Part shown: piece by piece, positions 16,315-20,638 of the stretch
How the letters are laid out: every line of letters begins with the position of its first letter
Numbering within the stretch: position 1 is the first letter of the stretch
Source: a virus
IMG/VR virus record: IMGVR_UViG_3300032177_000076
Span: 1 to 22,566 of that record
Direction: 5' to 3' (one strand)
DNA: 22,566 nucleotides
Notes under the pieces: generated by a model
What the model saw: the letters and a program-made list of their open reading frames with translations, nothing else
What the model was told of the DNA's origin: nothing
Databases searched by the model: none
Program-made: the position numbers and the translations under genes

Positions 16315-17682
16315 TTAAATTAAGATACATTCGGGGGTAACTGCCGGCTGCCAGGCGGCCTCGTTGCAACACGCGCATGCCCAAAACTCATCGGCGTGAC
16401 CTTCGTCCGTTTGGGCCGCATCGTAACGGACGTTGCCGGAAATCGTGACGGTTTTGCGAATCGAATGGAAGCTCTCCCTGATCTGCGGATCGTCCGGGAC
16501 GCGGATAAGTTTATCCTCAAACCGGCCGAGAGTGATGGAGGCCAGGTGCTCCTTAACGGTCGAAGTGAATTTGATTTTCTCAACGCGATGCTCGCCAAAT
16601 TCTTTTTGCAGCGACTCGACGAGCATGTCGCCAATTCCCGTGGCGTCGATACAAGCGCGGGCGATGTTGCGATTAAGCAGCAGGTCGCTTGCGACCTTGA
16701 GCTGGACATGATAAGGGGTTTTTTTGAGCCGGATGATCTTGCGGGCGATGAGTACATCGCCGGCCAGCTCGGCGATCCAGAATACGGTCAGGTGCTTTTC
16801 GCGACCGATATCGCCGCCCAGGTAATAAGTGCGCTGGCCCACGGCGTGGGGGATAAGGTCGCGCAGGCAGTCGGGACTTTCGCACGATTGATACGTGTCG
16901 TAAGAAATAAGCGTACTGGCGGCGGCCGAGGGGACGCACATATATTCCTGGTTAAAGGCATCTTCGCTTCGGCAGCGTGCCCGGCAGTCGGCCAGGAACT
17001 CCCGGCGAACAGCCGGGTCGATGTGGTCGAGCTTGCGTATCTTTTCGGCCAGGCCCTGCTCGACCGCTACGGTGATCGGGGTAAGATGATAAGACCAGTT
17101 GAGCGTTTTTAACTCGCGGGCGGTAGCCAGGCCGTCGGCTATCTTGCGGGCCTTCTTAACGAGATTGTCAAACTCGGAGCCCTCGCCGTTGCGAGTGGTG
17201 AGTATCTTGATATCATAGCCCCATGTGGTCGCGGGCAGGGCGGCGTCAAGCATCAAACCGGGCGAGTCGTGCCAGTCGAACTCGTCCAGGCAAACATCGC
17301 CACCCTTCGAACGGAACCGGCGGGGATTGCTGCTCATGCAATTGATTCGCGAACCGTTGGGGAACTCGACTACGTAGTTGTTGTATTTATAGCCTTTGTC
17401 ATCTTCAAGAGATTCGGTGAACTCTTTGACGACGGTCTCTATCAGCTCGCACCATTGACGACAGTACGCGGCGAACTCCATAGCGGCCGATTCATCGGCA
17501 CTGCTAAACCAGTAGTCGCGGCGGTGGTCGATCTTGTTACGCAAACCGCAGGCGGAGTAAGATTCAGCGTAGGTGGCGCCGATACGACGTGACTTGTCCC
17601 ATAGCTTGCTGGCAGAGCCATCCTGTATCCAGGCCCGCTGGTAAGGGAGGAAGTATTTATTTGATAACAATAAGTCGGTCAC
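16315..17682 (-). CDS. Terminase large subunit (Mu gp28-like)
   Basis: A 455-aa packaging ATPase/nuclease. The start YFLPYQRAWIQDGS leads into Walker A KSRRIGATYA (30-39); Walker B is LDEFD (132-136), with a coupling motif ILTTRNG (~160-166). The RNase H-like nuclease carries GGDIGR (Asp291), CIDATGIGD (Asp346) and GHADEFWA (Asp431), so all three acidic residues are present. The wording of the ATPase motifs (YQ...D...KSRRIG) is that of Mu-type gp28 proteins rather than HK97 TerL. The start codon is GTG, overlapping the TGA of the small subunit (GTGA), with AGGAG 10 nt upstream. Confidence 0.93.
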   Translation of the reverse strand: MTDLLLSNKYFLPYQRAWIQDGSASKLWDKSRRIGATYAESYSACGLRNKIDHRRDYWFSSADESAAMEFAAYCRQWCELIETVVKEFTESLEDDKGYKYNNYVVEFPNGSRINCMSSNPRRFRSKGGDVCLDEFDWHDSPGLMLDAALPATTWGYDIKILTTRNGEGSEFDNLVKKARKIADGLATARELKTLNWSYHLTPITVAVEQGLAEKIRKLDHIDPAVRREFLADCRARCRSEDAFNQEYMCVPSAAASTLISYDTYQSCESPDCLRDLIPHAVGQRTYYLGGDIGREKHLTVFWIAELAGDVLIARKIIRLKKTPYHVQLKVASDLLLNRNIARACIDATGIGDMLVESLQKEFGEHRVEKIKFTSTVKEHLASITLGRFEDKLIRVPDDPQIRESFHSIRKTVTISGNVRYDAAQTDEGHADEFWACACCNEAAWQPAVTPECILI

Positions 17683-18248
17683 GTTGCGGCGACTCCTAAA
17701 TGAGCGTCAACGATCTCCTGGATTAATTTGCGATCAACTCCCGCCTTAGTGAGTTTTTGTTTCGTACTGGCGGCGGCGGCTTTGGCCCTGGCGGCGGTCC
17801 GGTCCTGGAGGTATTTATCAGCCGTGATAGACACGTAAGCACAGTCCTTACAGGTTTTGGCAAGCTCGGATATCTGCTTTGGCGTAAGGTCATTGGATAT
17901 CGCCAGCTCGATGGCCTGGGCGGTGATCAGCTCAACCACTGCTTTTTGCGTCTCGCTTGGCGTTTGATCATCGAGGGTAGTCATAATGTTTCGCACTATG
18001 ACTCCCTTGTGCTTCATCATCCCCAACACGACGAACGGCTGAGCCCAGCGGCCTATCGCGGACTCAGAGATGTTATGACCTTTTTGCACACAATAAGCGG
18101 CCAGGTCCTCGTAACGCGGCTTGCCCTGTCGCTCGCCCGGCCCGTCGAAATCCGGCGGCCACTGGCCATCCACGACCATGCGGACCAATATATCACGCAG
18201 GTCGGCGGGCAGTGTGTCAATAGTGCTATGCGATCTTCTTTTTGCCAT
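17679..18248 (-). CDS. Mu gp27-like small terminase subunit (DUF3486-like)
   Basis: A 189-aa protein beginning MAKRRSHSTIDTLPADLRDILVRM, the opening characteristic of DUF3486/Mu gp27 proteins: Arg-rich, SxIDxLP, then a helix. An HTH-like region follows (YEDLAAYCVQKGHNISESAIGRWAQPF; 'S.S.IGRW' is typical). The C-terminal half is helical and Ala/Lys-rich. It recognises phage DNA and assists the large subunit, encoded next with a 4-bp overlap. Its own leader has only TTGGAAA far upstream, so it may depend on coupling with the preceding gene 7 bp away. Confidence 0.85.
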   Translation of the reverse strand: MAKRRSHSTIDTLPADLRDILVRMVVDGQWPPDFDGPGERQGKPRYEDLAAYCVQKGHNISESAIGRWAQPFVVLGMMKHKGVIVRNIMTTLDDQTPSETQKAVVELITAQAIELAISNDLTPKQISELAKTCKDCAYVSITADKYLQDRTAARAKAAAASTKQKLTKAGVDRKLIQEIVDAHLGVAAT

Positions 18249-18255
18249 GATGGTT

Positions 18256-18561
18256 TTATATTTCCAAAGCCGGGTCGGTCATGGTACCCTCGGCGATCTC
18301 CTTGCCCCTGTCCGTCAAGATGACGACCTTCTCGTCAAAAGAAACCATGCCGCCGATCTTGTCATCGATGAACGCGATGTAGTTTTTTTGCTTCAGGTAA
18401 AAAATATCTTTGAGGAAAAGCTGTTTATCGTAAGTTGGATCGCCGCACAATGTGCGATATAGCGTGTCGAGCCGGACGGGCGTGGGGTAAAAGTGGCCGA
18501 GGTTGAATACAACCATGCCTCGCTGTTGTTTGATCTTAATCGCTTGCAGTGATTTATCCAT
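18256..18561 (-). CDS. Mu gp26-like winged-helix phage protein
   Basis: A 101-aa protein with helix-turn-helix character. A segment ending RLDTLYRTLCGDP is followed by a helix LFLKDIFYLKQKNYIAFIDDK, a beta wing MVSFDEKVVILTDRGKEIAEG and an acidic end. This is the pattern of the small family encoded between the DUF2730 and DUF3486 genes in Mu-like phages (Mu gp26 position). Its exact role there is not known to me; location suggests a part in packaging or its regulation. AAAGG lies 8 nt before the ATG, and the start overlaps the preceding gene by 8 bp. Confidence 0.75.
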   Translation of the reverse strand: MDKSLQAIKIKQQRGMVVFNLGHFYPTPVRLDTLYRTLCGDPTYDKQLFLKDIFYLKQKNYIAFIDDKIGGMVSFDEKVVILTDRGKEIAEGTMTDPALEI

Positions 18562-18949
18562 TGTTGTTGCCTTTCTGGAATTTGGCCGCTATTTGGCTGG
18601 CGATCTGGCCGCAGATATCCGGCAGCTTCTCGATGATCGTGAGTTGGCCTTCCATTCGGTTTAGGATGGATGTAACGGTCTTTAGCTCGCTGCGTGAGAC
18701 GGCCTCGCCACGAACCCAATCTTCCTTTGAGACCGTAGTACGATTGCAATCAACTTTGCAGTCGGAGATTCGCTGGGTTATCTTTTTTAACTCATTTTCG
18801 GATTCAGCGATACGGCTGTCCTGCTGATCGATTCGCTGGCTGAAAACAGCCAGGCCCTGTTTGATGGACCGCAAGTAGATTATTATCATGCCGCCGATTA
18901 TTGACAGTAAGAAGTTGACGATAATGTCCCAACTCATTTGGTTTTCCAT
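18554..18949 (-). CDS. Mu gp25-like membrane-anchored coiled-coil protein (DUF2730-like)
   Basis: A 131-aa protein with an N-terminal membrane segment at ~9-26 (IIVNFLLSIIGGMIIIYL) followed by a coiled coil and a terminal helix (SELKTVTSILNRMEGQLTIIEKLP). This is the layout of DUF2730/Mu gp25, encoded just before the gp26-gp27-gp28 packaging genes, as here. The function of the family is unsettled. The ATG has AGGAG 4 nt upstream, and a second GGA occurs 11 nt further back (CAAGGAACATCAAGGAG), but I see no stem around it. Confidence 0.8.
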   Translation of the reverse strand: MENQMSWDIIVNFLLSIIGGMIIIYLRSIKQGLAVFSQRIDQQDSRIAESENELKKITQRISDCKVDCNRTTVSKEDWVRGEAVSRSELKTVTSILNRMEGQLTIIEKLPDICGQIASQIAAKFQKGNNNG

Positions 18950-19000: not shown

Positions 19001-19678
19001 CTAGGCCTCCGGGGCCAGGGCTACCGGGACCACGGGCGTCGGCTGGACGATAACAATCTGTCGCTTGATCGGGATACGCTCGGCGTTGACGAGCAGCTCG
19101 GTTTGAGGCGATTGAACGGACGTTTGAGCGGCCTTGAATGTGTTTAGCTCGGCGGTTTTGCCTTGATCGCGGAGGTATTGAGCAAGTAGCTCGTTGCCCT
19201 GGACTACCTCCTTTAATGCATCGCTCTTCTGGCGGGCCAGGGCGATCCAGTCGATGAGCTTCTTGCCGCCGATACCGGCGCCGCCAAAACCGAGGGCGAT
19301 GATTAGCTGTGATGCGAGCGAGAGGCCGCCCTCGGCGGCGTTAAACACATCCTGGGCGGCCGGCCGACGGGCCGCATCGGCGGCGGCCTGAGCGGCGGTA
19401 GTATCGTAGTCGGCGATCTCGGGGGTTTGAGGCATACCGCTATAAGCAAGCGAGGCGGCGGTGCCCACAACTATTTGTTTGGCGGCCTCGGAGCCGGGCT
19501 CCAGCCCTAAGTCGGCGGCGGACCGGGCGGCCTGGTGAGTGGCAAAGGCGAGCTGCTTTTGCGATTCGGTGGGGGCAAACCGTAGGCCGCCGCAGCCGGG
19601 CAGGGTAAACGCCAGGGCCGTGAAGATACAAAGGGATAACAACGCGGGAAAGATTTGGCGGGATGGATTGATGTTCAT
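19001..19678 (-). CDS. Predicted lipoprotein, possible lysis-region protein
   Basis: A 225-aa protein with a signal peptide and lipobox (hydrophobic ~9-25, then LPGC with Cys29), so probably anchored in a membrane. It carries a second hydrophobic stretch at ~125-145 (LSLASQLIIALGFGGAGIGGKKLIDWI), a helical region after it and a Pro/Val-rich end. In Mu-type genomes the genes preceding gp25 encode lysis functions (endolysin, holin, Rz/Rz1), so a spanin- or holin-like role is possible, but no endolysin is visible. The ATG at 19678 is chosen because AAGGAA lies 8 nt upstream, inside a perfect hairpin (19681-19698), and because it gives a good signal peptide. Confidence 0.65.
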   Translation of the reverse strand: MNINPSRQIFPALLSLCIFTALAFTLPGCGGLRFAPTESQKQLAFATHQAARSAADLGLEPGSEAAKQIVVGTAASLAYSGMPQTPEIADYDTTAAQAAADAARRPAAQDVFNAAEGGLSLASQLIIALGFGGAGIGGKKLIDWIALARQKSDALKEVVQGNELLAQYLRDQGKTAELNTFKAAQTSVQSPQTELLVNAERIPIKRQIVIVQPTPVVPVALAPEA

Positions 19679-19680
19679 AG

Positions 19681-19698
19681 TTATGGTTCCTTCCATAA
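19681..19698 (-). promoter_or_regulatory. Shine-Dalgarno in perfect hairpin hexaloop, lipoprotein gene
   Basis: On the transcript TTATGG-AAGGAA-CCATAA forms a perfect 6-bp stem with hexaloop AAGGAA carrying the ribosome binding site, two bases before the ATG at 19678. A GGA in a hexaloop over the Shine-Dalgarno is the form of site bound by CsrA-family repressors, and the upstream gene encodes a CsrA-like protein. Confidence 0.6.
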
Positions 19699-19724
19699 TC
19701 AGGTGACTTAACAGGCTTCCGAGC

Positions 19725-19913
19725 CTATTGTTTTTTTTTGGCGTTAGACCTTACGATTGTGATATTGGCAGGACACTCCAAAATGATTCTGATAAACGAA
19801 CAACGGTCGCTCGGATGTAATTGTATCGATCCGATAGCGGTCGGGTGTCCTGGCACTCCAAGGAAAACTTTTTCGTGTTTGTATAGCGTAAGTGTAAGCC
19901 GTTTGGTTCGCAT
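19725..19913 (-). CDS. csrA: CsrA-like RNA-binding translational regulator
   Basis: A 62-aa protein of CsrA size. Its pattern matches a CsrA subunit: RLTLTLYKHEKVFLG (CsrA: LTRRxGExxxIG), then an extended loop, SFIRIILECPANITIVR (CsrA: VRIGIEAPKDVSVHRE), ending NAKKKQ. The RNA-contacting Arg equivalent to R44 is kept (Arg55), but the N-terminal LTRR pair is LTLY, so half the classical binding surface differs. CsrA dimers bind GGA in hairpin loops and block or stabilise mRNAs. The ATG at 19913 is preferred over one five codons upstream because GGAGGT is 7 nt before it. It is the first gene of the minus-strand cluster. The family call is by eye; an unrelated small beta protein is the alternative. 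Confidence 0.65.
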   Translation of the reverse strand: MRTKRLTLTLYKHEKVFLGVPGHPTAIGSIQLHPSDRCSFIRIILECPANITIVRSNAKKKQ

Positions 19914-19918
19914 GATAT

Positions 19919-19932
19919 GTACCTCCATGTAC
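19919..19932 (-). promoter_or_regulatory. CsrA-type GGA hairpin over the csrA-like gene's own Shine-Dalgarno
   Basis: On the transcript GUAC-AUGGAG-GUAC forms a 4-bp stem with the Shine-Dalgarno GGA in a hexaloop. The 12-mer GUACAUGGAGGU matches the published CsrA SELEX consensus RUACARGGAUGU at 10 of 12 positions by my count. It suggests autoregulation. Confidence 0.6.
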
Positions 19933-19961: not shown

Positions 19962-19984
19962 CGATTTTAAGCATGGAGGCGGGC

Positions 19985-20031
19985 GCAAAAAAAGCCCGCC
20001 ACCGGTATCAAAGAGTCTCGGTCAACGGGCT
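19985..20031 (-). terminator. Possible minus-strand intrinsic terminator
   Basis: On the minus strand AGCCCG pairs with CGGGCT across a loop of about 25 nt and runs straight into TTTTTTT. The alternative local pairing GGCGGGC/GCCCGCC (19978-20000) encloses the T-run in its loop, so the two folds are mutually exclusive, as in attenuators. It could isolate the csrA-like cluster from genes to the right. Confidence 0.4.
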
Positions 20032-20220
20032 GATTAAGCACGTTTGTGGAGATGCAACTCCACGGGAATTTTATCAAACAAACACAGGATATAAATAAGC
20101 CGCCGATTTCGCAAGGGGAAAAATGGGAATTTGTAAAAAAAATGTTTGTGGTAACGCATTGCAAAATAAGGAGTTATGATGTGAGTCGAAAAAAATATGT
20201 AATTTTTGCAAAAAAACAGC

Positions 20221-20270: not shown

Positions 20271-20308
20271 GTTGAAACAAAAACAAAAACGAATGGAGAA
20301 AAAAAATG
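20271..20308 (+). repeat. Twin leader, copy 1
   Basis: A 38-bp segment ending in the ATG at 20306 matches 20601-20638 at 35 of 38 positions: GTTGAAACAAAAACAAAAAC then GAATGGAGAAAAAAAATG. It is an A-rich, G-poor, probably unstructured leader with GGAG 8 nt before the start. Confidence 0.85.
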
Positions 20309-20600: not shown

Positions 20601-20638
20601 ATTGAAACAAAAACAAAATTGAATGGAGAAAAAAAATG
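20601..20638 (+). repeat. Twin leader, copy 2
   Basis: Near-identical to 20271-20308, with differences only at the first base and at two bases before GAATGG. It ends in the ATG of the HTH gene. The duplication covers the leader and ribosome binding site but not the coding regions. Confidence 0.85.

Follow-up and report, generated by a model that had tools for sequence, protein, structure and literature searches.

In a 22.6-kb virus record of the Mu/B3 kind (the window, by which we mean the whole stretch of DNA analyzed), a hairpin stands directly 5' of a lipoprotein gene and carries the gene's Shine-Dalgarno (SD) GGA in its loop. This raises the question of whether the hairpin is a regulatory site and, if so, which protein would read it. 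The initial annotation described it as TTATGG-AAGGAA-CCATAA ending two bases before the lipoprotein ATG, which is exact on the minus strand by direct reading: TTATGG occupies 19698-19693, the AAGGAA loop 19692-19687, and CCATAA 19686-19681, followed by CT and the ATG at 19678-19676. The arms form six perfect Watson-Crick pairs, and the loop holds the SD GGA.

The minus-strand order is leader, csrA-like gene, lipoprotein gene, DUF2730-like gene, small winged-helix-like gene, gp27, and large terminase, the last being 38% identical to its counterpart in Pseudomonas phage B3. The features concerned are as follows.

19681..19698, minus strand: SD-presenting hairpin of the lipoprotein gene, UUAUGG-AAGGAA-CCAUAA, an ANGGAN hexaloop (direct reading, fold, and co-variation in 32 leaders)
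19725..19913, minus strand: csrA-like gene, 62 aa, a divergent CsrA-family candidate
19001..19678, minus strand: lipoprotein gene, 225 aa with a signal peptide and the lipobox LPGC, first after the csrA-like gene; relatives in L001, L002, L005, and L006
18554..18949, minus strand: DUF2730-like gene, downstream in the same operon (phrog_462, E 3.3e-6)
18256..18561, minus strand: winged-helix-like gene, 101 aa, an anchor for finding relatives
17679..18248, minus strand: Mu gp27-like small terminase gene (PF11985, E 7e-15; phrog_426)

The gene at 18554..18949 is taken to be DUF2730-like from its position.

The SD hairpin of the lipoprotein gene

The predicted fold of the 18-mer has -4.0 kcal/mol; that of the 57-nt leader (19735-19679, minus strand), which runs from the csrA-like gene's end up to the lipoprotein start codon, consists of exactly two hairpins (-13.6 kcal/mol, z -2.2). 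On both strands of the window, this hairpin is the only A-N-GGA-N hexaloop closed by at least six Watson-Crick pairs. A chance figure of 1 in 4,000, proposed in the initial annotation, is too strict; under a composition-aware null that kept GGA in place and shuffled all else, 2.0% of trials gave a GGA-containing loop closed by 6 bp or more, and this single-leader figure applies at about 25 genes per window. Such odds, together with the ordinary fold energy of the 43-nt context (z 0.06), favor the view that this is a single pretty palindrome arisen at one gene by chance. Taken singly, the hairpin is modest evidence, and the statistical weight comes from its relatives.

An in-frame ATG (19696-19694, minus strand) falls within the hairpin's 5' arm; with a start there, the lipoprotein would be six residues (MEGTIT) longer. 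This ATG is not conserved and lacks an evident SD.

Shape and register are conserved among related phages

Relatives were collected via the lipoprotein, gp27, and the winged-helix protein. The sample comprised 32 leaders, 28 from lipoprotein genes and 4 from csrA-like genes, in about 28 related phage records, which are fragments, and 135 other genes of the same loci served as controls. The idea that GGA loops recur was written down from the first dozen leaders, and further leaders were gathered afterwards. As the nearest relative (L001), which is without the csrA-like gene, has a different SD hairpin, GTAC-ATGGAG-GTAC, the letters of the hairpin are not conserved. A first look at this GTAC hairpin had suggested that the TTATGG hairpin itself is not conserved, which was wrong, as the letters differ and the structure is kept.

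Sites were aligned on the SD GGA, an anchor that fixes the register and cannot create complementarity between the arms. In the A-N-GGA-N hexaloop register, the mean perfect Watson-Crick stem round the SD GGA is 2.50 bp, against 0.51 bp for the other genes (n = 135; Mann-Whitney p 1.8e-10, this and the other p-values being guides rather than exact, given the kinship of the leaders and the automatic gene calling). Other registers and loop sizes give stems of 0.03 to 0.66 bp, save for an 8-nt loop, in which the stem is identical but for its opened first pair. Taken alone, the 21 later-found leaders also differ from the other genes (p 1.1e-7), and the SD stem averages 0.55 bp in genes with an upstream gap of at least 40 nt and 0.45 bp in host-class genes.

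The pairing also belongs to each leader individually. With their own arms the leaders reach 2.5 bp, compared to 0.95 bp when 3' arms are swapped among them, and none of 5000 permutations equaled the 2.5 bp. When the 32 sites are aligned without gaps, covariation scores 0.601 versus 0.222 after shuffling (0/500), with 70.6% of cells paired versus 47.5%, and sliding the partner by 1 to 3 columns brings the covariation to 0.19 or less. The arms thus co-vary in homologues by both the swap and the covariation tests, which is the check that the initial annotation had named for its hairpin. An A two bases 5' of GGA is found in 32/32 leaders versus 59/135 other genes (p 1.7e-10). A prophage included in none of these counts (L141) carries UCCCGA-UGGA-UCGGGA together with a 7-bp hairpin, UUUUUGC-AUGGAG-GCAAAAA.

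In many leaders the SD stem is short (2-3 bp) or absent, and in many the SD reads GAAAGGAG, an extended SD. The extended SD accounts for part of the loop by itself, but not for the paired TC side; seven other genes with the same GAAAGGA SD have a mean stem of 0.86 bp. Judged from these alignments, the SD hairpin keeps its shape, not its letters, across a family of probable Planctomycetota phages, and this shape is precisely that of a CsrA docking site. Family-wide co-variation and register specificity, which extend to the leaders found after the hypothesis, already refute a chance palindrome, and we give that explanation hardly any credence.

Both genes carry a second, upstream GGA hairpin

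The initial annotation further proposed that the operon holds two linked targets. This is borne out in the window, because both the csrA-like and the lipoprotein gene have a GGA hairpin at the SD and another upstream.

19710..19729, minus strand: upstream GGA hairpin of the lipoprotein leader, AAUAGGCU-CGGA-AGCCUGUU, overlapping the csrA-like stop codon
19943..19964, minus strand: upstream GGA hairpin of the csrA-like leader, UCGGCCCGG-CGGA-CCGGGCUGA, 25 nt before the SD GGA
19919..19932, minus strand: SD hairpin of the csrA-like gene, GUAC-AUGGAG-GUAC

The upstream CGGA loop of the lipoprotein leader lies at 19721-19718, and its GGA is separated from the SD GGA by 27 nt. That of the csrA-like leader lies at 19955-19952, upstream of an SD loop that reads AUGGAG, and an inner G-C pair of this upstream hairpin is A-U in L001. 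The 14 letters of the csrA-like SD hairpin are also found 5' of the lipoprotein gene in L001, L013, and L093, and they agree at 10 of 12 positions with the CsrA SELEX consensus RUACARGGAUGU (PMC7652899).

GGA is the commonest loop triplet among all 64. GGA-loop hairpins of at least 4 bp occur at -60 to -20 in 11/25 lipoprotein leaders versus 10/121 other genes (Fisher 5e-5), and at the SD in 13/25 versus 15/121 (Fisher 4e-5). Of the 18 leaders collected once the idea had been written down, 12 have at least one GGA-loop hairpin (null mean 4.0; 0/1000). The upstream hairpin stands 18 to 32 nt from the SD site (GGA to GGA) in 15/32 leaders, including both in the window; about half of the leaders have no detectable one, and its loop is often CGGA, without the preferred A. 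CsrA dimers bridge sites 10 to 63 nt apart, with an optimum above 18 (review PMC7652899).

A proposed CsrA-type two-site leader

On comparative grounds, we think it likely that the leader puts translation under CsrA-type control through two sites and that the SD hairpin supplies the one at the Shine-Dalgarno. One face of a CsrA-family dimer would hold the upstream CGGA hairpin (19710-19729) and the other the SD hexaloop (19681-19698). Such bridging would keep ribosomes off the lipoprotein gene, which heads the late packaging operon, for as long as the regulator is neither titrated nor inactivated. As the csrA-like start has the same pair of sites, the csrA-like and lipoprotein genes would be repressed together. 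The model builds on the observed sequence, on structural conservation, co-variation, register, spacing, and gene specificity, and on the operon order and the class-level presence of host CsrA; binding, repression, direction, and timing are the steps that we infer from it.

This arrangement resembles CsrA repression of Escherichia coli glgC, in which a dimer bridges an upstream hairpin site and an SD site (PMC7652899). In both cases one GGA lies in a hairpin loop just upstream and a second lies over the SD, within bridging distance. Unlike glgC, the phage leaders belong to a late operon in probable Planctomycetota hosts, and in several of them the SD site, too, forms a hairpin, with a hexaloop and covarying arms. 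Likewise, the RsmE/RsmA hairpins (hcnA, RsmZ) are A-N-GGA-N hexaloops on a short stem, which RsmE is seen to recognize in NMR structures (PMC7652899). The phage leaders have the same ANGGAN hexaloop hairpin as RsmE/RsmA sites, whereas they are known from comparison only, come from a different phylum, and precede a phage gene.

A protein-free device, in which a weak stem tunes or thermally gates ribosome access, would suit the short stems (2-7 bp) round the SD as well as the alternative sequestering folds of the csrA-like leader described below. It fits poorly with an SD that lies in the loop rather than the stem, with a loop size and register fixed at ANGGAN with an invariant A, and with a second GGA hairpin that recurs 18 to 32 nt upstream; we consider it quite unlikely.

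The probable host class and its CsrA

One relative is a prophage in a Sedimentisphaerales MAG (L019), of the class Phycisphaerae and phylum Planctomycetota. Relatives of the winged-helix gene are found in 49/347 Phycisphaerae genomes, and most of these class genomes (G005; e.g., L144-L159) hold Mu-like prophages of a remoter kind, which lack the lipoprotein leader. Phycisphaerae is the probable host class of the phage family. In this class, that of the prophage-bearing MAG, Pfam CsrA is present in 54/61 sampled genomes.

The regulator in most relatives is probably host CsrA, as suggested by the distribution of genes and sites. Host CsrA is the more general candidate because most relatives are without the csrA-like gene, yet many keep the sites. 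In the five records that have this gene, the csrA-like protein may replace, assist, or antagonize host CsrA.

The csrA-like protein is a probable divergent relative of CsrA

The gene that the initial annotation had picked out as csrA-like is real and conserved, being found in five records including the window and each time immediately upstream of the lipoprotein gene. Its relatives in the four other records share 31-45% identity and surfaced only among 37 syntenic loci; a single-sequence scan for close relatives gave none, and comparison of the protein with annotated phages gave no meaningful relative. The gene is absent from 26/31 searched records, large ones included, and many of these keep the hairpins.

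The assignment to CsrA was examined by profile and by structure. The Pfam CsrA model (PF02599) scores the protein at 12.5 bits (E 0.15), below the gathering cutoff of 27 bits, and the best E value among the family members is 0.021. With hhalign, a four-sequence profile aligns end to end with CsrA (columns 6-63 to CsrA 2-52), so that the likeness seen in the initial annotation extends over the entire length of the protein; the score is 23.8 (P 1.8e-4), with a probability of only 48.5%, and none of 300 column shuffles reached it (maximum 18.4). Of the RNA-contact residues of CsrA, Arg44 has an invariant equivalent, R55, in the csrA-like proteins, and the position of L4 is L8 or I8 in four relatives. 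An AlphaFold2 model has five strands in the CsrA order (pLDDT 84-85). Searches of two models with Foldseek and VIA gave no significant match and no CsrA chain standing out, and a sequence search of the PDB matched nothing. The RsmN structure 4krw, at rank 33-39 with E 3.2-3.5 and 22% identity, was not counted as a match. The csrA-like protein is thus probably a divergent CsrA relative, not a proven member.

That this phage protein is itself the regulator, binding its own and the lipoprotein leader as an autoregulated two-gene timer, is possible although doubtful. The conserved place of its gene just 5' of the lipoprotein gene in five records, the GGA hairpins in the leaders of both genes, a CsrA profile match beyond that of 300 shuffles, and the invariant Arg44 equivalent all point to this role, while the lack of the gene from 26/31 records, many still with hairpins, and the score under the Pfam cutoff speak against it. 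Phage counter-regulators are common, and the csrA-like protein, small, divergent, and encoded first in an operon presumed to be repressed, could instead be an antagonist, which would free the late genes by competing with host CsrA, by forming nonproductive dimers with it, or by shielding the sites. The invariant R44 equivalent suggests that the protein binds RNA and is no dead decoy, and we hold antagonism to be unlikely.

We offer a broader picture only tentatively: a family of Mu/B3-like phages of Phycisphaerae may keep its late operon under CsrA-type control, with a subset encoding a new, highly divergent CsrA subfamily of its own. This protein would either time the operon, regulating itself as well, or work against host CsrA, tying lysogeny or late expression to the carbon and energy state of the host.

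Relation to CsrA proteins on phages and other mobile elements

CsrA/RsmA genes have been reported on 30/2517 phage genomes, e.g., RsmM, their role being untested there (PMC7366521). The window shares with them a CsrA-family-like gene on a phage. Unlike those clear homologues, the csrA-like protein is far more divergent (12.5 bits versus a cutoff of 27) and has a longer beta2-beta3 segment, and its gene sits beside a candidate target. RsmN of Pseudomonas aeruginosa is a family member in which an insertion alters the fold, with ANGGA binding through Arg62 (PMC3791407). The csrA-like protein similarly has an insertion, with 22% identity in the weak structural match to 4krw, whereas its insert is a loop rather than a predicted helix and the match is not significant. 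CsrT, as described where it is cited in PMC7366521, is a CsrA paralogue of Legionella integrative elements that is thought to act on the element itself. By that description, and not by sequence, it is likewise a CsrA-type gene on a mobile element, one that is conjugative and not a phage. Overexpression of csrA lowers Salmonella prophage release through cI (PMC12371270).

In the papers that we searched, there was no report of conserved CsrA-type sites in a phage late-operon leader. The parts are of known kind, and what is new is their combination in such a leader. Phage CsrA genes have been cataloged on about 1% of phages without known targets, and the link between CsrA and prophages is indirect only. 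Here, one phage family combines a candidate target site and its covariation with a CsrA-like gene in the same operon, so the use of CsrA by phages becomes directly testable. If the reading is true, it would reveal a post-transcriptional switch in phages of Planctomycetota, bacteria about whose phages little is known.

The lipoprotein and its neighbors

At E 0.001 the lipoprotein has no lysis-family match (spanin, holin, or lysin) in Pfam or PHROGs, and no relatives were found among annotated phages. The position of its gene resembles the lysis/spanin slot of Mu, by synteny only. No support emerged for a part in lysis, which the initial annotation had raised as a possibility. The lipoproteins of L083, L089, and L075/L076 are very different in sequence from those of L001 and others, with the leader architecture kept. 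The regulatory element looks as if it were a cassette for the operon head, not for one protein. Two relatives encode short hydrophobic holin-like proteins next to their lipoprotein and DUF2730-like genes or in the space between these (L002, 574-858; L099, 2809-3135).

The leader 5' of the csrA-like gene

Further structures precede the csrA-like gene.

20046..20063, minus strand: leader hairpin 1, GUGGAG-UUGCAU-CUCCAC
19987..20031, minus strand: terminator-like hairpin with a T-run, conserved in L001, L013, and L141 and less exactly in L005 and L012
19972..19980, minus strand: GCCTCCATG, which in folds pairs with CATGGAGGT (19921-19929) in an alternative fold that sequesters the SD of the csrA-like gene

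The stem pairs of hairpin 1 change together in L001, L013, and L141, the arms in L001 being GCGGAG/CUCCGC. From sequence and predicted fold, hairpin 1 and the terminator resemble an attenuator of transcription placed where the late operon begins; no Rfam family matched at the leader. Directly 3' of the terminator (19979-20000, minus strand), GCCCGCC could pair with the terminator's GGCGGGC, and this pairing may form an alternative hairpin. The arrangement fits a simple pattern in the leaders of 5/25 relatives (L001, L013, L067, L091, and L096). Pairing of GCCTCCATG with the SD appears in the folds of the window and L013 and, by eye, with one mismatch in L001. Only L001 and L013 share, in exact form, the full leader pattern of terminator, anti-SD, and GTACATGGAGG.

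On the plus strand, a 37-nt direct repeat with 95% identity is found at 20272-20308 and 20602-20638 (TTGAAACAAAAACAAAA..GAATGGAGAAAAAAAATG), and two plus-strand genes, divergently placed, have its copies as their ribosome-binding regions.
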